51,990 bases of DNA. Source: Actinomycetota bacterium. GTDB lineage: Bacteria > Actinomycetota > Actinomycetes > Nanopelagicales > Nanopelagicaceae. Within the stretch, counting starts at the first letter, position 1. Every line of letters begins with the position of its first letter. The stretch spans positions 1-51,990 of the forward strand of contig VGAA01000005.1 in NCBI GenBank assembly GCA_016870895.1. Direction: 5' to 3'. The position numbers were made by a program, and so were the translations under genes. This document shows, piece by piece, positions 16,400-30,894 of the stretch. The notes beneath the pieces are model-generated. The model had not been told where the DNA came from. It ran no database searches and saw only the letters and a program-made list of their open reading frames with translations.

Positions 16400-17299
16400 C
16401 TATGCCCTGGGATGGGCTTGTTTGTATGCCGATTGCAATCGCTCTGGTGAAACATGGGTATAAATTTGGGTAGTTGATAAGGAAGCATGACCTAATATCT
16501 CCTGCACAGTTCTAAGATCTGCTCCACCTTCAAGTAGGTGTGTGGCAGCGGTATGTCGTAAGCCATGCGGACCCATACTGGCGCCCACTGATTTCATTGC
16601 TTCGTAAACCACCTCGCGCACAGTTCGCTGATCAATTCGTTTTCCTCTAGAGCCTAGGAAAACTGCGGCAGCTGATAATTGATTTACTAACTCTCCTCTG
16701 GCGGTAGTTAAGTAATTACTTAATGCCTTCATGGCCGGAATACCCAATGGGACAACCCGCTGCTTACCTGCCTTACCAATTACATTTAAAGTATTACGAG
16801 AGTTATCAATGTCAGATAAATTTAAGCCGCATAACTCAGAGACTCGAATACCAGAGCCATATAAAACCTCAAGCATGGCAAGGTCTCTAATATTTTCAGC
16901 ACTTGGCTCTTCAGATGCTTTAACCTCTAGGGATTTAATTACGGTAGCGGCCTCATTAACATTTAATACCTCCGGCAAAACTTTATGAGGTTTAGGGACT
17001 GAAAGATTTGCACCCAAATCAGAGGTGAGCCAGCCATTGGCAGCTGCCCAATTTGTAAAGGCTCGGATAGATACAATTCTGCGAGTTAATGTTGCCCTTG
17101 CTACTCCAGTGCTTTGCAGATTGGCTAACCAAGATCGAATGTGTTCGATCTCCAATTGATTAAATTCAACAATACCTAGTTTTTCCATGTGCTTTAAAAA
17201 AGATTCTAAATCTGTGACATAACCTCTAATTGAGTTATCAGAGAGGTTTCTAACTAGGGCAAGGTGCTCCTGATACTGGGTAACAAGTGCTGCCGACAT
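16400..17299 (-). CDS. xerC: Tyrosine recombinase XerC/XerD family
   Basis: This 299-residue site-specific recombinase has an N-terminal SAM-like DNA-binding domain (about 1-90) and a C-terminal catalytic domain. All catalytic residues are visible: Arg152 (GSGIRVSEL), Lys176, His245 and Arg248 (GPHGLRHT), His271 (LGHASL) and nucleophile Tyr280 (TQIYTHV). It should resolve chromosome dimers at dif. Actinobacteria usually carry such a gene near rpsB, which favours the XerC name. It lies 10 nt behind cimA, so it may be a distal gene of the ilv operon. Confidence 0.9.
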   Translation of the reverse strand: MSAALVTQYQEHLALVRNLSDNSIRGYVTDLESFLKHMEKLGIVEFNQLEIEHIRSWLANLQSTGVARATLTRRIVSIRAFTNWAAANGWLTSDLGANLSVPKPHKVLPEVLNVNEAATVIKSLEVKASEEPSAENIRDLAMLEVLYGSGIRVSELCGLNLSDIDNSRNTLNVIGKAGKQRVVPLGIPAMKALSNYLTTARGELVNQLSAAAVFLGSRGKRIDQRTVREVVYEAMKSVGASMGPHGLRHTAATHLLEGGADLRTVQEILGHASLSTTQIYTHVSPERLQSAYKQAHPRA

Positions 17300-17309
17300 G
17301 ATCAGCAGA

Positions 17310-18899
17310 TTACTCGGGTTTGCGCCCTTGTCTTAGTAAGCCATAGGTAACCGCGTCATCTAATGCCATAGCTGAGGCTGCAATCACATTCTCATGAACA
17401 CCAATCGTGCTCCACTCACCCTGGCTATCGCTGGTTTCAACCAACACTCTAGTTACCGCCCCTGTGCCTAGCCGGCCTTCGAGGATTCGAACTTTGTAAT
17501 CTGTTAGCTCCAGTTTTGATAACTCAGGATAAAACTTTTCTAACCCAGATCGCAGCGCGTTATCAATGGCATTAACTGGACCATTTCCAACACCGGTCGC
17601 TGAGATGGTTTCACCATTGGCTTTGATTTTTACCATAGCTTTAGAAGTAACTTTGCCAGTTTCATCTTGATGAACAGTAATTTGCCAATCCTCAATTTTG
17701 AAAAAACTCGGCCGTTTACCCAACACCTCGGTGCGTAGTAGTAATTCAAAGGATGCATCCGCAGCTTCAAATGTGAAACCTTTACCCTCTAGCTCTTTTA
17801 CTTTTTCAACAACTCGGGCAATCAAATCTTTATCCCCACCTAAATCAATTCCAAGCTCTACAGATTTAAGTTCAATTGAAGCTCTACCTGCCATCTCAGA
17901 TACCAACATGCGCATGTCATTTCCAACTGACTCTGGAGTTTCATGTTGATACATCATCGGATCAACTTTGATCGCTGATGCATGCAGGCCAGCCTTGTGC
18001 GCAAAGGCGGATGTGCCAACATAAGGCTGTCTTGCACTTGGTGCCACATTAGTTATTTCGGCAACTGCATGTGAGATTCTAAAAGCTTCCTGTAGTTTGC
18101 CAGCAGGCAGTACTTGTTTTTCTTTTTTAAGTTCAAGATTTGCAATGATATTAACTAAATCTGCATTTCCAGTTCGCTCACCATAACCATTTAATGTTCC
18201 TTGCACATGAGTAACTCCTGCTGAGATTGCAGCGAGCGAGTTTGCTACCGCACACCCGGTGTCATTATGGCAATGAATTCCAAGCCGAGCACTTGAGGCG
18301 GTTAATACCTCATGCACAATATTTGATAACTCATCTGGCAGCATGCCACCATTTGTGTCGCACAAAGCGACAACATCAGCGCCAGCTTCGGTCGCAACTC
18401 TAACTACCTCTAGTGCGTATGCTTTATTGGAAAGGTAGCCATCAAAAAAGTGCTCAGCATCTAGAAATACTCGTTGCCCACCTGATTTTAAAAATTTAAT
18501 TGAATCAGCAATCATTGCTAAATTCTCATCGAGATGAGTTTTTAGCGCTAGATCAACGTGGCGGTCATGACTTTTTGCAACCAGTGTTACCGCTGCAGCT
18601 TTTGAATCTTGTAAAGCTCGAAGTAGGTGGTCATCTGCTGCTTTAATACCGGCTCTTCTAGTGGCACCAAATGCTACAAAGGTTGCATTTTTTAACTTTA
18701 ATTCAGTTTGCGCTAATTTAAAAAACTCGGTGTCTTTTGGATTTGCTCCTGGCCAGCCGCCTTCGATAAATCCCACGCCCAAATCATCAAGGTGGCGGGC
18801 AATACTCAATTTGTCATGCACCGAAAGATTTAAGCCCTCTTGTTGCGCACCATCACGCAAGGTTGTGTCATAGATATGAAAGGAATCGTTAATTGGCAT
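17310..18899 (-). CDS. cimA: Citramalate synthase
   Basis: This 529-residue enzyme condenses pyruvate and acetyl-CoA to (R)-citramalate, the first step of the threonine-independent route to isoleucine. The N-terminal barrel begins with IYDTTLRDGAQQEGLNLS, the isopropylmalate/citramalate synthase signature, with GGWPGANPKDTEF typical of the long CimA type. HCHNDTG supplies metal ligands. The C-terminal regulatory domain (about 400-529) probably binds isoleucine. The start overlaps the ilvE stop by 1 nt. A 2-isopropylmalate synthase is less likely because of GGWPG and the domain layout. Confidence 0.87.
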   Translation of the reverse strand: MPINDSFHIYDTTLRDGAQQEGLNLSVHDKLSIARHLDDLGVGFIEGGWPGANPKDTEFFKLAQTELKLKNATFVAFGATRRAGIKAADDHLLRALQDSKAAAVTLVAKSHDRHVDLALKTHLDENLAMIADSIKFLKSGGQRVFLDAEHFFDGYLSNKAYALEVVRVATEAGADVVALCDTNGGMLPDELSNIVHEVLTASSARLGIHCHNDTGCAVANSLAAISAGVTHVQGTLNGYGERTGNADLVNIIANLELKKEKQVLPAGKLQEAFRISHAVAEITNVAPSARQPYVGTSAFAHKAGLHASAIKVDPMMYQHETPESVGNDMRMLVSEMAGRASIELKSVELGIDLGGDKDLIARVVEKVKELEGKGFTFEAADASFELLLRTEVLGKRPSFFKIEDWQITVHQDETGKVTSKAMVKIKANGETISATGVGNGPVNAIDNALRSGLEKFYPELSKLELTDYKVRILEGRLGTGAVTRVLVETSDSQGEWSTIGVHENVIAASAMALDDAVTYGLLRQGRKPE

Positions 18900-19984
18900 T
18901 ACACAACCCGCTTATTCCAGCCATGCTTATCCGGAGAAGTACCATGTTGAATTGCTAATAATGCTGCTCTAATTTCATTGGTAATTGCACCAGGTTTTCC
19001 ATCACCAGTTTGCCAAGTGCCATGAATGCTTTTAGCAGCACCTACCGCAGAGATAACGGCAGCAGTTCCACATGCAAAAATTTCTGTAATCTCACCACTT
19101 TTAACACCATCGCGCCAATCATCAATAGAAATCATGGTCTCTTCGGTTTTATAGCCAAGATCTTTGGCTAAAGTTAAAATCGAATCCCGCGTGATACCTG
19201 GAAGTAGTGTGCCTGTTAATTTAGGTGTCAAAATGGTGGCATCCTTGCCACTTCCCTTAATGAAATAAAGATTCATTCCACCCATCTCTTCTACCCACTT
19301 GCGCTCTTTAGCATCAATATATGCAACCTGATCGCAACCTTCTTGTGCTGCTTGTTTTTGGGCAAGTAATGAAGCCGCATAATTGCCACCACATTTTGCC
19401 TCCCCTGTTCCACCAAGAGCAGCTCGGACGTACTCAGTTGAAATCCACACTGTTACCGCTTTTGCCGCATTGAAATAGGCAGCAGCTGGAGTTGCAATCA
19501 ATACATAAGTTGCGTGATTAGATGGTCTAACACCTAGGCCAACTTCAGTTGCAATTAAGAATGGCCGTAGGTATAAAGATTCACCAATTTTTTTAGGTAC
19601 CCAATCCTTTTCTTGCTTAACTAATGCTTCAACGGTTTGCACAAAAAATTCAGTTGGCATTTCCGGTAAGGCAATTCGAGCAGCAGATTTAGCAAATCTC
19701 TTGGCATTTGCCTCTGGTCTAAATAATGAAACTCCACCATCTGGTTGGCTATATGCCTTCATACCTTCAAAAACTTCTTGACCATAATGAAAAACCATAG
19801 TTGCTGGATCTAGTGTTAGTTGGCCATACGCCTTTAACTCAGCATCTTGCCAACCATTAGATTCACTCCAATGTGCGATCACCATATTGTCGGTGTAGTA
19901 CTTACCAAACCCTGGTTCAGCCACTTTCTGATTGCGATCACTATCAGATATCGAATTCTTATTTGGATTAAGAATTACCTTCAT
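18899..19984 (-). CDS. ilvE: Branched-chain amino-acid aminotransferase
   Basis: This 361-residue fold-IV PLP enzyme carries out the last step of valine, leucine and isoleucine synthesis. The PLP lysine is Lys197 in [28 protein letters not shown] and LRPFLIATE are typical of the long class II form. It overlaps leuB by 4 nt and cimA by 1 nt, so it is translated as part of the operon. Confidence 0.95.
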
Positions 19985-21014
19985 GCCACACCTCTAACCA
20001 ACGCATCACCTATCTCAGTTGTACTTCGCTTCTTATCGCCACGATTTAATAAATCTTGAGCAACAGCATTTTCTACATCTTTAGCTGCTTGAGTTTGTCC
20101 TAAATGATTTAGCATCATGGCAACTGATAATACTGTGGCAGTTGGATCTGCCTGGTTCTTACCAGCAATATCTGGGGCAGAACCGTGTACTGGCTCAAAC
20201 ATTGACGGGAAAGCACCAGTGGGATTGATATTGCCACTCGCTGCTAATCCGATTCCGCCGCAAATTGCCGCAGCGATATCGGTAATAATGTCACCAAAAA
20301 GATTATCGGTAACTACTACATCAAATCTCTCAGGATTTGTAACAAAAAACATTGAGGCAGCATCAACATGTAAGTAATCTGTAGTGACATCGCTGAAATC
20401 TTTTGAGACCTCGTTAAAAACTCGACTCCAAAGCCCACCTGCTCGGGTTAACACATTGTTCTTATGTACCAAAGTTACCTTTTTACGGGGTCTGCTTTGA
20501 GCGCGATTAAATGCATCTCGTATTACTCGCTCAACACCTTTATAAGTATTGATTGACTCTTCGATTGCAAGCTCCTTATTTGTTCCCTCATCCTTAATAG
20601 AGCCGGCACCAACATAAAGTCCTTCAGTTCCTTCGCGAACGACCACAAAATCAATGCCCTTATTATTTGTAATTGGCGAGCTAACGCCTGGAAATAACTT
20701 TGCCGGCCTTAAGTTAATGTAATGTTCAAATGCAAACCGCAATTTAAGTAACAACCCACGTTCCAAAACCCCACTGGGAACTGATGGGTCACCCACTGCA
20801 CCCAATAAAATCACATCAGATTTAGCCAAGTCAGCCATAACTGAGTCTGGCAATGTTTCACCAGTTTTATGCCAATAGGCAGCACCCAACTCATAATTAG
20901 TTTTACTGAAATTCAAGTCATATTTTTTGGCAACAGTATCCAAAACTCTTAGACCTTCGGTTACAACCTCTGGTCCAATACCATCACCTGCGATAACTGC
21001 TAAATTGAAATTTT

Positions 21015-21018
<4 letters not shown>
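19981..21018 (-). CDS. leuB: 3-isopropylmalate dehydrogenase
   Basis: This 345-residue NAD-dependent dehydrogenase works in leucine synthesis. Key parts are AGDGIGPEV at the N-terminus, [13 protein letters not shown], and [13 protein letters not shown] with the metal-binding aspartates. [14 protein letters not shown] is the cofactor loop. Some members of this family also act on methylmalate in the citramalate route, which would fit the neighbouring cimA; that is inference. It overlaps serA and ilvE by 4 nt each. leuA and leuCD are not in the window. Confidence 0.93.
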
Positions 21019-23658
<2,640 letters not shown>

Positions 23659-23668
23659 TTATTGTTGG

Positions 23669-24220
23669 TTAATTTTGGTAATCAGCTGTAGAACTAATTG
23701 ATTCTGACTCGTTAGCTGTTCCCATGGTGCTTAGAGTTCGATCTGCCAATGTATTGGCACCTCGTTCGATCGCAACCAAGCCGGATTGAACTAGCTCACG
23801 AATTCCATGTGGCTTTAACTCAGTAAGTAAAGCCTCGATCGCAGTAGAGGAGCCAACCGCCTCGATAGAAATCGTTGAGGCAGTTTCATCTACGATACTT
23901 ACATTATGCTTTTTTGCAATCTCTTTAGTTGCAGCTTTGTTCGCCACCTTTACCAAGAGAATTTCCCGCTTTAATGAATCGGTATCCTTCATTTCAGAAA
24001 TGCCAATGACATTTACTAATTTGAATAATTGGGCACTGACCTGATCTAGGGCATGACCCTCTAAATTTAGAACAATAGTCATTCGAGAAACCTTTGGATT
24101 CTCAGTTGGTCCAACCGCCAGTGAATCAATATTGTAACCGCGACGAGAAAACAGTGATGCTACTCGAGCTAACACACCAGGTGAGTTCTCAACTAAAACC
24201 GCTAAGGTATGAGTAGCCAT
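23669..24220 (-). CDS. ilvN: Acetolactate synthase small (regulatory) subunit
   Basis: This is the regulatory subunit that binds valine and activates IlvB. I start it at the ATG at 24220 ([20 protein letters not shown], 183 residues): the codon overlaps the ilvB stop (TAATG) and AGGAG lies 5 nt upstream. The N-terminal ACT domain shows NSPGVLARVASLFSRRGYNI; the second half is the usual ALS_ss C-terminal domain. The serine-rich tail is slightly longer than in many relatives. Confidence 0.95.
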   Translation of the reverse strand: MATHTLAVLVENSPGVLARVASLFSRRGYNIDSLAVGPTENPKVSRMTIVLNLEGHALDQVSAQLFKLVNVIGISEMKDTDSLKREILLVKVANKAATKEIAKKHNVSIVDETASTISIEAVGSSTAIEALLTELKPHGIRELVQSGLVAIERGANTLADRTLSTMGTANESESISSTADYQN

Positions 24221-25956
24221 TACAACTCCTGTGAATCCCATACTGGCGCCATTGATCTGGCAACAGTAATGTCATCATTTGAAGTTCCAGCGGCGACCAT
24301 TGGCCAAACCATTGCGTCTCGGTGGACATTAAAATCAACAACTACTGGGCGATCATTAATCGCCATCGCAGCTTCAATAGTTTTATCGACATCCTCCGGG
24401 CGCTCACACCTTAAGCCAACACAACCCATGGCCTCGGCTAATAATTTAAAATCCGGAATTCGCTTTGAGTGTAGATCTGTATTGGAGTAACGCTGGTTAT
24501 AAAACAGAGTTTGCCACTGGCGAACCATGCCCAATGATTCATTATTTATAACTGCAACTTTGATTGGAATATTATTTAAGGCACAAGTTACTAACTCTTG
24601 GTTAGTCATCTGAAAACAGCCATCGCCATCAATTGCCCAAACCGTAGTATCCGGTGCGCCAACCTTTGCCCCCATAGCTGCTGGTACGGCATAACCCATA
24701 GTTCCTAAGCCACCAGAGTTAAGCCAAGTTCGAGGTTTTTCATATCCAATAAATTGTGATGCCCACATTTGATGTTGACCAACACCGGCAGTAAATATGG
24801 TCTCTGGACCAGATATTTTTCCAATCCGTTCAATTACATATTGTGGCGAAACCGATCCATCACTTGGTTGGTCATAACCCAATGGAAACTTACTTCGCCA
24901 ACCATAAGTTTCATCTAGCCATGGTGTTAAATCTGGCTGAGATTTTGCCAATGCACTCTTAGTTGCTGGTGATAAGGCTTGTAATATATTTTTTAAATCG
25001 CCGATTAATGCCACATCAGCATGGCGGTTTTTACCAATTTCAGCTGGATCAATATCGGCATGAATAATTTTTGCATTTGGCGCAAAGGTAGAGAGTTTGC
25101 CCGTTACTCGATCATCAAATCTGGCACCGAGTGTGATTAGTAAATCAGCTTTTTGTAGAGCGGTAACCGCTGCAACTGTGCCATGCATACCAGGCATACC
25201 AAGGTGTTGCTTATGTGAATCTGGGAATGCTCCTCGAGCCATAAGTGTGGTCACCACCGGTGCACCAGTAATTTCAGCGAATTGCATCAACTCTTTTGCG
25301 GCATTTGCTTTTATCACACCGCCACCAACATATAAAACTGGTTTCTTAGATTGCGCAATTAAGGCGGCGGCATCATTTATTGATTCTTGTTTCGGTACCA
25401 GAACTGGGTTATAGCCCACAAGTGAAATATTTTTAGGATAATTAAAAGTACTCTCTTTTTGCAACGCATCCTTGGCAATATCAACTAAGACTGCTCCGGG
25501 CCGGCCAGTACTTGCTATATGAAAAGCCTCAGCAATTGCCCGTGGAATATCGGCTGGATCAGTAATTAAATAATTGTGTTTTGTAACTGGCATTGTTACA
25601 CCACGGATATCTGCCTCTTGAAATGCATCGGTTCCAATTGCTGGTGCTGGTACTTGACCGGTAATTGCAACTATTGGCACAGAATCCATCTGTGCATCAG
25701 CTAAAGGTGTTACTAAATTTGTCGCACCAGGACCTGAGGTAGCAATACAAACTCCAACGCGGCCAGTTGCTTGGGCGTAGCCAGTGGCTGCATGTCCTGC
25801 ACCTTGTTCATGTCTTACTAATATGTGTCTGATTTTTGAATCAAAGATTGGATCATAAGCAGGAAGAATGGCGCCACCTGGTATGCCAAACATGACATCA
25901 ACCCCAGCAGCTTCAAGTGCGTTTACTAAACTCTGCGCACCAGTTACCTTGCTCAT
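24220..25956 (-). CDS. ilvB: Acetolactate synthase large (catalytic) subunit
   Basis: This 578-residue thiamine-diphosphate enzyme makes acetolactate or acetohydroxybutyrate. Typical parts are [14 protein letters not shown] with [13 protein letters not shown] (catalytic Glu region), [14 protein letters not shown], and the thiamine-binding motif starting [12 protein letters not shown]. The ATG at 25956 is preceded by AAGGAAGAT. The transcription attenuator at 25987-26111 precedes it, so expression should respond to charging of Ile/Val tRNAs. It is followed by ilvN with a TAATG overlap. Confidence 0.96.
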
Positions 25957-25986
25957 ATCTTCCTTTCTTTCAGATAGTACTTATCT

Positions 25987-26018
25987 AAAACAAAACCCCC
26001 CAGTTTTATCTGAGGGGT
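25987..26018 (-). terminator. Intrinsic terminator of the ilvBNC attenuator
   Basis: On the minus-strand RNA, ACCCCUCAG (26018-26010), loop AUAAAA and CUGGGGGGU (26003-25995) form a 9-bp GC-rich stem with one G-U pair, followed by UUUUGUUUU. This is a textbook intrinsic terminator. It is placed between the leader peptide stop and the ilvB ATG, about 30 nt before ilvB. Confidence 0.9.
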
Positions 26019-26051
26019 GCGAACTAACTTTGCTGGTTAGCGCGCACGCTC
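26012..26051 (-). promoter_or_regulatory. Antiterminator hairpin of the ilv attenuator
   Basis: GUGCG and CUAAC in the last leader-peptide codons and stop region can pair with GUUAG and CGCAC just before the terminator (26017-26047). The stem can extend with GAG (26051-26049) pairing to CUC (26014-26012), which is part of the left arm of the terminator. The two folds therefore compete. A ribosome stalled on the upstream Val/Ile codons would leave this hairpin free to form; one that reaches the UAA would cover its left arm. Pairing was done by eye. Confidence 0.65.
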
Positions 26052-26111
26052 GATAATCACCACGACCACAGATGTGATCACGATTTGTGAGATTAGCGAT
26101 GATTTCTTCAT
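26037..26111 (-). CDS. ilvL: ilvBNC leader peptide, 24 codons, rich in Ile and Val
   Basis: The frame from ATG 26111 to TAA 26037 encodes 24 residues. They include a run of Val-Val-Val-Val-Ile-Ile at 15-20 and further Leu6, Ile7, Ile10, Val11 and Ile12, so 11 of 24 codons are branched-chain. It is followed at once by an antiterminator and an intrinsic terminator and then by ilvB. This is the layout of a translation-coupled attenuator, as known for ilv operons of other bacteria including Corynebacterium. A GAAACT hexamer ends 6 nt before the ATG, so the leader peptide itself may be translated from a leaderless transcript. Confidence 0.9.
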   Translation of the reverse strand: MKKSSLISQIVITSVVVVIIERAR

Positions 26112-26117
26112 GGGATT

Positions 26118-26147
26118 AGTTTCTCAGGTGCACTCTCATCTAGTCAA
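26118..26147 (-). promoter_or_regulatory. Candidate promoter of the ilvB attenuator transcript
   Basis: On the minus strand TTGACT (26147-26142), an 18-nt spacer and GAAACT (26123-26118) lie ahead of the leader-peptide ATG, with 6 nt between the -10 and the ATG. The -35 is strong and the -10 weak. It is in the 89-nt gap between the ilvD stop and the leader peptide. Confidence 0.5.
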
Positions 26148-26200
26148 CCCCTGAGATGGTGATCTCATTATTTGAGCGCGACCGGATAAGGTAATACTTT

Positions 26201-27901: not shown

Positions 27902-29398
27902 TTATTGCCCCAAGTGCTTTAATAATAATTCTCTTACCTTAGCCGCATCGGCTTGGCCGCCAGTTGCTTTCATTACTGCACCAATTAGCGCACCAGCAGC
28001 AGGAATATTTCCACCTCGAACCCGATCTGCAGTTTCTGGTGCTGCTGCAATTGCATCTGCGATGGCCTTCATCAGCTGAGAATCATCTGATACAACTTTA
28101 AGTCCACGCTTTAAAATCACATCAGCAGGTGAACCCTCCCCTGCGATCACACCTTCCACTACCTGTCTTGCCAATTTATCAGTTAATTCCCCTTGATTAA
28201 TGAGGGTGATAATTTGATAAACATCTTTCACTGAAATCAATTCCGTGGGAAATACTGTTCTATCATTTGCAATTCTAGAGATTTCACCTAGCCACCAAGA
28301 TCTAGCTCTTGTTGGATCTGCGCCAAGTAATACTGTCTCTTCAACTGTATCTAATAATTCTGCATTTACCATGGCAGACATTTCTTTATCTGGCACAGAC
28401 CAAGCTTGTTGTAATCGCTTGCGCCGATCAGCAGGCTTTTCTGGAAGTGATTTACGAAGCTCTTCAATCCACTTACTATCAGGAATCACTGGAACTAAAT
28501 CAGGTTCGGGAAAGTATCGATAATCCTCTGCCTGCTCTTTTGATCTGCCTGGTCTAGTTTGACCACTTTCTTCTAAAAAGTGACGGGTCTCTTGAATAAT
28601 TCGTTCACCACTAGCTAATCGATTTGCTTGTCTAACAAATTCACCATTGACTGCGCGCTCAACAGAGCGAAGTGAGTTTACATTTTTAGTTTCACTTCTA
28701 GTTCCAAGTTTGCCGCTATTAATCTCAGACAGCGACAAATTAACATCACAGCGAAGAGAGCCCTGCTCCATTTTTACATCAGATACTTTTAGGCCGCGTA
28801 AAATATCGCGCAGTGAAGCTACATATGCTCTGGCAACTTGTGGAGCATATTTGCCTGTATTTGGAATAATTTTGGTAACTATCTCGACTAGTGGAATACC
28901 TGCTCGGTTGTAATCTAGAAGTGAGTAATCAGCACCATGAATTCGACCAGTTGAGCCACCAACATGAAGAGATTTACCAGTGTCCTCCTCCATATGAACT
29001 CGCTCGATCTCTACTCTAAAACTCTTACTTCCATCATCGGTGTCGATCTCAACATCTAAATATCCATTCACACAAATTGGTTCGTCATACTGTGATGTTT
29101 GGAAGTTCTTAGGCATATCTGGGTAAAAATAATTTTTCCTTGCAAACCGAGAGTATGGTGCGATCGAACAGTTAAGGGCTAGGCCAATTAAAATCGTACT
29201 TTCAATTGCTTTCTTGTTTACAACTGGAAGTGAGCCTGGAAGACCTAGACAAACTGGGCAGGTTTGAGTATTTGGTTGAGCACCAAACTCTGTAGCACAG
29301 CCGCAAAACATCTTTGATTTAGTATTTAGCTCAACATGAACTTCCAGTCCAAGGGTGGGTTCATACTTTTTGACCGCTTGCTCGTAATTAAGACTCAT
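27902..29398 (-). CDS. gatB: Asp-tRNA(Asn)/Glu-tRNA(Gln) amidotransferase subunit B
   Basis: This 498-residue subunit binds tRNA and activates the mischarged residue. Diagnostic stretches are [38 protein letters not shown] with zinc-ligand cysteines, [20 protein letters not shown], and the C-terminal YqeY-like tail (about 350-498). It overlaps gatA by 4 nt. Its presence implies glutaminyl- and/or asparaginyl-tRNA are made indirectly. Confidence 0.95.
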
Positions 29399-30894
29399 TT
29401 TGAAGCCGCTAAATTTGGTGCGAAATCTAGAATAGGTTTACCCCATTTATTATTTAGAGTTGCTTCCAAGGCACCACCTACTAAATACATTCGATCATCT
29501 TTCATGGCAGGTGACATAATCTGGAAGCCAACTGGCAGGTTATCTTCTTCAGCTAGGCCACATGGCAAACTCATGCCACCGATTCCAGCCATGTTCACCG
29601 GAATTGTTGCAATATCATTTAAATACATTGCCAATGGGTCATTAGTTTTCTCACCAATTTTAAATGCGGTTGTTGGTGCCGTAGGTGAAACTAAAACATC
29701 ACATTTAGTAAAGGCTGACTCAAAATCTCGCTTAATAAGGGTTCTTACCTTTTGTGCTGAACCGTAATAGGCATCGTAGTAACCCGAGGAAAGTGCGTAG
29801 GTACCAAGAATAATTCTACGTTTAACCTCCCGGCCAAATCCAGCCGCTCTAGTTAAATTCATTACCTCCTCAGCACTCTTTGAACCATCATCTCCAACCC
29901 GTAATCCAAATCGAATTGAATCAAATCTTGCTAAGTTAGATGAGCACTCACTTGGTGCAATTAAATAGTAGGCAGCTAATGCATACTCAAAATTAGGACA
30001 TGAAACTTCGACAATTTCTGCTCCTAATTTAACTAATTCATCTAATGATTCTTTAAATTTATTTTCAACTCCCTTTTGATATCCATTACCTGATAGCTGC
30101 TTAACCACGCCAATTTTCATTCCTTTTATATCTTGCTTCTTAGCTGCAGCTACTACATCTGGCACATTTTGATTAATGCTTGTCGAATCTTTGGGATCAA
30201 AACCAGCTATAACTTGATGTAATAAAGCCGTATCTAAAACTGATCTTGCGCAAGGACCGGCTTGATCAAGGGATGATGAAAATGCAACTAAGCCATACCT
30301 AGAAACACCGCCATAAGTTGGCTTAACGCCAACTGTGCCAGTTACTGCTGCTGGTTGTCTTATTGATCCACCAGTATCAGTTCCAATAGCAAGTGGTGCT
30401 TCATATGCTGCCAGGGAAGCTGATGATCCACCACCTGATCCACCAGGAATTCTAGTTAAATCCCAAGGATTTTTTGTGGGACCAAAAGCTGAGTTTTCTG
30501 TTGATGAACCCATGGCAAACTCATCCATATTAGTCTTTCCTAAAATTACAATACCTGCACTTTTTAATTTTGTGACTACAGTTGAGTCGTAGGGTGGTCG
30601 CCATCCCTCTAGAATTTTTGAACCACAAGTCGTTGGTATACCTTTTTGGGTTAATACATCCTTTAACGCAAGTGGTACTCCAGCCAATGGTGATAATTTC
30701 TCACCTGCAGCTCGCTTCTTATCAACCTCTGCTGCATGGGCTAATGCACCTTCTTTATCTAAATATAAAAAGGCATGGACATCTTTATCTACTGCCGTTA
30801 TTTGATCGTAATGCTGATTAGCAAGATCTACTGCACTTATCTCTTTGCTGGCTAATGCAGCAGCCATACTTGCAGCAGATTCTCTAATCATCAT
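29395..30894 (-). CDS. gatA: Asp-tRNA(Asn)/Glu-tRNA(Gln) amidotransferase subunit A
   Basis: This 499-residue amidase-signature subunit releases ammonia from glutamine. The catalytic triad is visible: Lys78 (LALKDVL), cis-Ser153 (PGGSGGGSS) and nucleophile Ser177 ([11 protein letters not shown]). It starts directly after the gatC stop with ATG-ATG (30894 or 30891) and overlaps gatB by 4 nt. Confidence 0.95.

Follow-up and report, generated by a model that had tools for sequence, protein, structure and literature searches.

The window, the whole stretch of 51,990 nucleotides that was analysed, is contig C5 of a 681-kb genome which is 64% complete, and carries on its minus strand a row of biosynthetic genes whose NCBIfam matches bear out the gene content given in the initial annotation. 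These are ilvB (acetolactate synthase large subunit, 24220-25956, with its ATG at 25956 and a Shine-Dalgarno sequence AAGGAAG at 25959-25965), ilvN (acetolactate synthase small subunit, 23669-24241), ilvC (ketol-acid reductoisomerase, 22603-23637), serA (phosphoglycerate dehydrogenase, 21015-22637), leuB (3-isopropylmalate dehydrogenase, 19981-21018), ilvE (branched-chain aminotransferase, 18899-19984) and cimA (citramalate synthase, 17310-18899). As a xerC/D-type tyrosine recombinase gene (16400-17299, minus strand) begins 10 nt past cimA, the transcript may extend beyond seven genes to include it as an eighth. The order ilvB-ilvN-ilvC-serA-leuB-ilvE-cimA-xer was kept in representatives of 8/8 genera checked, and prediction of minus-strand terminators from 25995 to 14800 gave none that was convincing. 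That a single switch governs the seven genes is plausible, with the reservation that C. glutamicum has internal promoters (PMC11857589). Among the matches listed, the closest named relatives of IlvB were, at 95% identity, that of a MAG assigned to Candidatus Nanopelagicus sp. and, at 94-95%, those of freshwater actinobacteria (single-cell genomes and MAGs), which places the window in the Nanopelagicaceae.

The leader element lies on the minus strand, 155 nt 5′ of ilvB, and contains an open reading frame of 24 codons (MKKSSLISQIVITSVVVVIIERAR followed by UAA; 26037-26111, minus strand), 11 of which encode Ile, Val or Leu, including the run VVVVII (Val4-Ile2), exactly as first described. The putative regulatory codons, Val15-18 and Ile19-20 (GUG GUC GUG GUG AUU AUC, 26052-26069, minus strand), are backed by alignment and by selection on the codons. 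Within the genus, codons 14-24 carried 37 nonsynonymous differences at 2457 sites, compared with 127 synonymous differences at 1008 sites; by this comparison they are under strong purifying selection, and RNA structure may constrain some of the sites too. Across the family the leader peptide varies from about 9 to 30 amino acids and its N-terminal part from a few to more than 20 residues, yet the distance of Val-Val-Ile from the antiterminator arm hardly changes (alignment A5). The proposal that the leader senses Val and Ile is supported. In one genus (g39, L119-L128) an in-frame TAA stands right after Val-Val-Ile, so that the stop codon precedes the antiterminator hairpin and the distance from stop to terminator is 30-32 nt as against 17-21.

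Upstream of the leader lie a -35 box TTGACT (26142-26147, minus strand) and a -10 box GAAACT (26118-26123, minus strand), separated by an 18-nt spacer, with the GAAACT hexamer ending exactly 6 nt before the leader ATG, where it had been noticed initially. A sigma-70 scan missed this promoter because GAAACT is not TATAAT-like, and it is the family alignment that reveals it: a GANNNT box is found at the same place, ending 6 nt short of the start codon of the leader or, in one genus, 7 nt short of it, and TTGAC precedes the box by 17-19 nt. From the position of the -10 box and standard spacing, transcription is predicted to start on the first base of the ATG (26111) or one nucleotide away. The suggestion that the leader peptide is translated from a leaderless start is thus, as far as family alignments can tell, well supported; leaderless starts of IlvL have been mapped in S. 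lividans (PMC8079986) and, within one nucleotide of the start codon, in C. glutamicum (PMC11857589).

Two hairpins follow the regulatory codons. The antiterminator-like hairpin (GUGCG.CG.CUAAC / GUUAG.UU.CGCAC, 26017-26047, minus strand), identified by folding and covariation, has its arms at 26047-26036 and 26028-26017, holds the UAA stop codon (26039-26037) within its left arm as had been claimed, and reaches with its 3′ end into the left arm of the terminator. The predicted intrinsic terminator (ACCCCUCAG-AUAAAA-CUGGGGGGU with a U-tract, 25987-26018, minus strand), also backed by covariation, has a stem of 9 pairs at 26018-25995, 6 of them GC, and a U-tract whose end lies some 30 nt upstream of the ilvB ATG, in agreement with the first description. 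Folding further predicts, for this genus, an extended antiterminator (26006-26056, minus strand) which adds UUAUC.GAG / CUC.A.GAUAA and invades the left arm and loop of the terminator. The earlier claim of an antiterminator built over the last codons with the use of the terminator left arm is therefore right for this genus, where the core contributes 2 nt of overlap and the extension 8 bp. A hairpin H1 within the Ile10-Val17 codons (26059-26084, minus strand), found by folding and alignment, is a possible pause or anti-antiterminator structure and is not conserved outside the genus. The leader RNA as a whole folded with z = -3.4, with 1 of 200 shuffled sequences folding equally well. An alternative pairing of the terminator left arm with the Val codons, checked by eye, was seen in single sequences only (L025, L029).

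By plain DNA search the region was found in 24 genomes of the same genus, counting that of the window, and in 10 further genera of the family. The leader ORF, the hairpins and their spacing are preserved in the sequences from this genus and in those from the first six other genera to be aligned. A covariance model of the element, built from 11 of these sequences, found a match in 176 of the 201 genomes of the family, among them 95 of the 99 good ones, and in 14 of 17 genera, and one genus that the model missed was seen by eye to have the element (MSKILVVGQRAI and a stop codon, with GACAAT 6 nt before the ATG). A lack of conservation in relatives had been named as an outcome that would speak against the attenuator, and the reverse was found. 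Outside the family, the covariance model matched ilvB upstream regions of a sister family. Rfam searches of the window, and of the leader also at a relaxed threshold, returned nothing relevant. Many other Actinomycetes (L195-L250) have short ORFs before ilvB whose peptides end LVV..RRA or LVL..RVG, and many of these have NANNNT 6 nt upstream of the start codon; these candidates were chosen with a bonus for the NANNNT box and are suggestive only. A class-wide RNA motif before ilvB, absent from Rfam, may be definable. Those matches of the covariance model elsewhere in some genomes that were followed (G094, G013, G073) were rejected, being repeat-rich or end-of-gene hairpins and no second leader, and the match L163 is the ilvB leader itself. 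Several MAG records titled Bifidobacterium breve or Streptomycetaceae (L187, L199, L201, L205, L193) have ilvB loci 73-82% identical to the Nanopelagicaceae lineage, two of them (L187 and L193) also with a Nanopelagicaceae-type leader, and their taxon labels look wrong.

Comparison of relatives for compensatory changes revealed double changes in both helices. Over 55 distinct family sequences, 10 pairs of the two helices (a 14-pair hairpin and a 7-pair terminator) had changed on both sides; 87.2% of the cells were paired, compared with 82.5% in shuffled sequences (0/500 as high) and 24-48% when the helices were slid, and the covariation score was 0.182, compared with 0.115 in shuffled sequences (0/500) and at most 0.072 with slid helices. 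These sequences were partly collected with a covariance model already containing the structure, which favours the structure; those from the plain DNA search show the same. In L088 and L090 an Arg codon CGC has become the Leu codon CTC, which changes the peptide, and the opposite arm has changed to match, and in one genus GUGAAC/GUUCAC has been replaced by GUGAUC/GAUCAC. Stability of the core hairpin relative to shuffled sequences reached a mean z of about -2.6 to -5 in most genera.

How the two hairpins would exclude one another was addressed through their junction and through simulated ribosome positions. The distance between the 3′ end of the antiterminator hairpin and the 5′ start of the terminator was -3 to +1 nt in 80/80 sequences from 13 genera, with 0 commonest and -2 the rule in this genus, and the junction stayed within this range while the hairpin length varied from 27 to 36 nt; the fold window used for this count itself restricts the measurable overlap to 3 nt. 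In simulations of the RNA before the terminator right arm is made, the extended antiterminator was intact while Val15 occupied the ribosomal A site, had its outer part disrupted at Val16-17 and its core at Ile19-20, and was absent with the ribosome at the stop codon. The antiterminator is thus predicted to depend on ribosome position, and this modelled geometry is what an attenuator needs. When both alternative RNAs were folded, as proposed at the outset, the antiterminator formed before the terminator right arm exists, but in the full-length fold of the window the terminator state was favoured over the antiterminator state by about 7 kcal/mol. With the full RNA, equilibrium modelling put the terminator at 86-98% formed wherever the ribosome stood. 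On these models the hairpins are not thermodynamically exclusive, and the original expectation that a freed antiterminator excludes the terminator was not supported in that form. As the terminator is predicted to win at equilibrium and the core overlap is 2 nt here and often nil in other genera, switching must be kinetic (aided in this genus by the 8-bp invasion) or steric.

These data bear on two accounts of the switch itself. That the same nucleotides are contested by a textbook pair of mutually exclusive structures, with an antiterminator stable enough to exclude the terminator, draws some strength from this genus, in which the antiterminator with its extension takes up 7-11 nt of the left arm and loop of the terminator and reaches -19.7 kcal/mol before the terminator right arm is made; yet the core hairpins share only 2 nt in the window and no nucleotide in many other genera, and with the preference for the terminator in full-length folds we regard this account as rather unlikely. 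Base-pair exclusion cannot be the general rule; the likelier mechanism is a kinetic branch migration, or steric blocking where the helices meet. The alternative that the stop-codon hairpin blocks termination by occupying the space beside the base of the terminator, sterically or in competition for the junction pair and with no recourse to shared sequence, fits the constancy of the junction in all 80 sequences despite the varying hairpin length. It also fits C. glutamicum, where the hairpin bases are adjacent and overlap by GCC (3 nt), and where junction mutations in the terminator base raise expression several-fold (PMC11857589). The constancy has to be read against the 3-nt limit that the fold window imposes, and from such modelling we would give this alternative a little less than an even chance. 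In its strict form, with an antiterminator that shares no sequence with the terminator and a zero-linker hairpin that blocks termination sterically or by competition at the junction, it is doubtful; if true, mutually exclusive base pairing would be unnecessary for attenuators.

A palindrome, TGAGATnnnnATCTCA, lies 4 nt upstream of the -35 box (26152-26167) and is, by its conservation in the family, a candidate operator. Among family leaders it was perfect in 46/78 and had one mismatch in 17/78, nearly always 4 nt before TTGAC, and it never occurred at one mismatch or fewer in shuffled sequences. The perfect copy was unique in the genome of the window and in 4 of 5 near-complete genomes searched. 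One-mismatch copies elsewhere lay inside coding genes in the cases opened, and no regulon was found in that way. Degenerate copies were located at the start of an IclR-type gene resembling NdgR/LtbR (the loci concerned being L262, L264, L265, L266, L269 and L273): four genomes of this genus share an identical copy with two mismatches (TGAGATGGCATTATCA), and two other genera have copies with one and two mismatches. This placement suggests that an NdgR/LtbR-like protein may bind the palindrome and regulate itself, and the conserved palindrome hints at a second, protein-based layer of control on the operon; to name NdgR as the protein concerned is a lead rather than a finding. NdgR of S. coelicolor binds upstream of ilvB, at a motif GTCCAC...GGAC (PMC4340878); identity of the palindrome with that motif was rejected, there being no resemblance.

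The remaining explanations concern what controls the operon. Main control by a DNA-binding protein at the palindrome, with the leader setting a basal level only, would account for the fixed position of the palindrome, its uniqueness where present and its degenerate copies at IclR-type genes, but leaves the conserved leader codons and covarying hairpins unexplained, and the palindrome is absent in genus g9, which retains the leader; we consider it improbable. A constitutive terminator behind ilvD, with a chance ORF, might be thought of as ilvD (27892-26201, minus strand) ends 90 nt upstream of the leader on the same strand, but a conserved promoter of its own between ilvD and the leader, the selection on the codons and the conserved spacing already contradict this reading, to which we attach next to no probability. 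The genes gatA-gatB-ilvD (window 27902-30894) lie upstream on the same strand, and read-through from them would put a long 5′ part with no Shine-Dalgarno sequence before the leader ORF, a possible bypass of leaderless initiation. A ligand-binding riboswitch appears equally remote: some ilvB genes are preceded by riboswitches of the ppGpp class (PMC10272879), but no Rfam riboswitch or T-box match was obtained at gathering or relaxed thresholds and the structured part consists of two simple hairpins. Against attenuation itself stand the predicted equilibrium preference for the terminator in every state, the report that codon changes in the S. coelicolor ilvB leader were without effect (PMC1262725), and the core hairpin of this genus, which is only weakly above shuffled sequence (mean z -1.5). 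With these weighed, ilvB is very probably preceded by a transcription attenuator of the ribosome-mediated type whose leader peptide is leaderless, and the translation-coupled attenuation initially proposed is supported by the conserved leader, the covarying hairpins and the predicted dependence on ribosome position.

In such an attenuator RNA polymerase would start on the first base of the leader ORF or one nucleotide away from it, and the ribosome would initiate on the bare 5′ end of the mRNA. While charged tRNA-Val and tRNA-Ile are in good supply, the ribosome would reach the UAA and cover the left arm of the antiterminator, whereupon the terminator would form and RNA polymerase would stop before ilvB. 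With these tRNAs scarce, the ribosome would stall at the Val/Ile run and the hairpin that spans the stop codon and the codons just before it would form first, in this genus invading the terminator left arm and loop by 8 more bp; the terminator would then close too late, or have its base blocked beside the abutting helix, and the operon would be transcribed. The parts, their conservation, covariation and spacing were observed and the dependence of the antiterminator on ribosome position was predicted, and from there we infer the transcription start, the stalling and the lowered termination.

In attenuators of the E. coli trp and ilv type the leader peptide has a Shine-Dalgarno site and the alternative stems overlap extensively; they share with the present element the selection of a hairpin by ribosome stalling. 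Leaders with terminators have been predicted in Corynebacterium, Streptomyces and Mycobacterium (PMC1262725). The closest precedent is the ilvBNC attenuator of C. glutamicum, with IlvL and hairpins H1-H3 (PMC11857589) together with the Corynebacterium ilvB-II motif (PMC10272879). It resembles the present element in the gene, in the leaderless Val-rich leader (there with +1 one nucleotide from the start codon, here predicted), in the antiterminator base adjacent to the terminator base, in the terminator with its U-tract and in the fast switching proposed at the junction. The leader here, in contrast, has 24 amino acids and ends VVVVIIERAR, the overlap consists of 2 nt and an 8-bp extension where C. 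glutamicum has the GCC trinucleotide, the gene row is longer (serA leuB ilvE cimA), and H1, which is specific to this genus, falls within the coding run. Similarly, Streptomyces lividans and S. coelicolor have a leaderless IlvL (MRTRILVLGKRVG) and a terminator before the same gene (PMC8079986, PMC1262725), whereas the peptide and hairpins differ. The M. tuberculosis ilvB1NC attenuator also pairs a uORF rich in branched-chain amino acid codons with an antiterminator and terminator, and codon dependence was demonstrated there by an LVVI to AAAA change; its leader is described as 166 nt long, and the uORF is not known to be leaderless (PMC13236596).

Our literature search found no paper on attenuators in Nanopelagicales; the type of control is already known and the lineage is new. 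What is added is the covariation across the family, the fixed geometry from promoter to start, and hairpins that abut rather than overlap. Candidatus Nanopelagicus and its relatives are genome-reduced freshwater actinobacteria which would have kept a nearly universal translation-coupled switch, and the family offers dozens of natural attenuator variants in which the hairpins meet and rarely overlap by more than 2 nt, so that the switching of the adjacent-hairpin attenuators of Actinobacteria would become directly testable.
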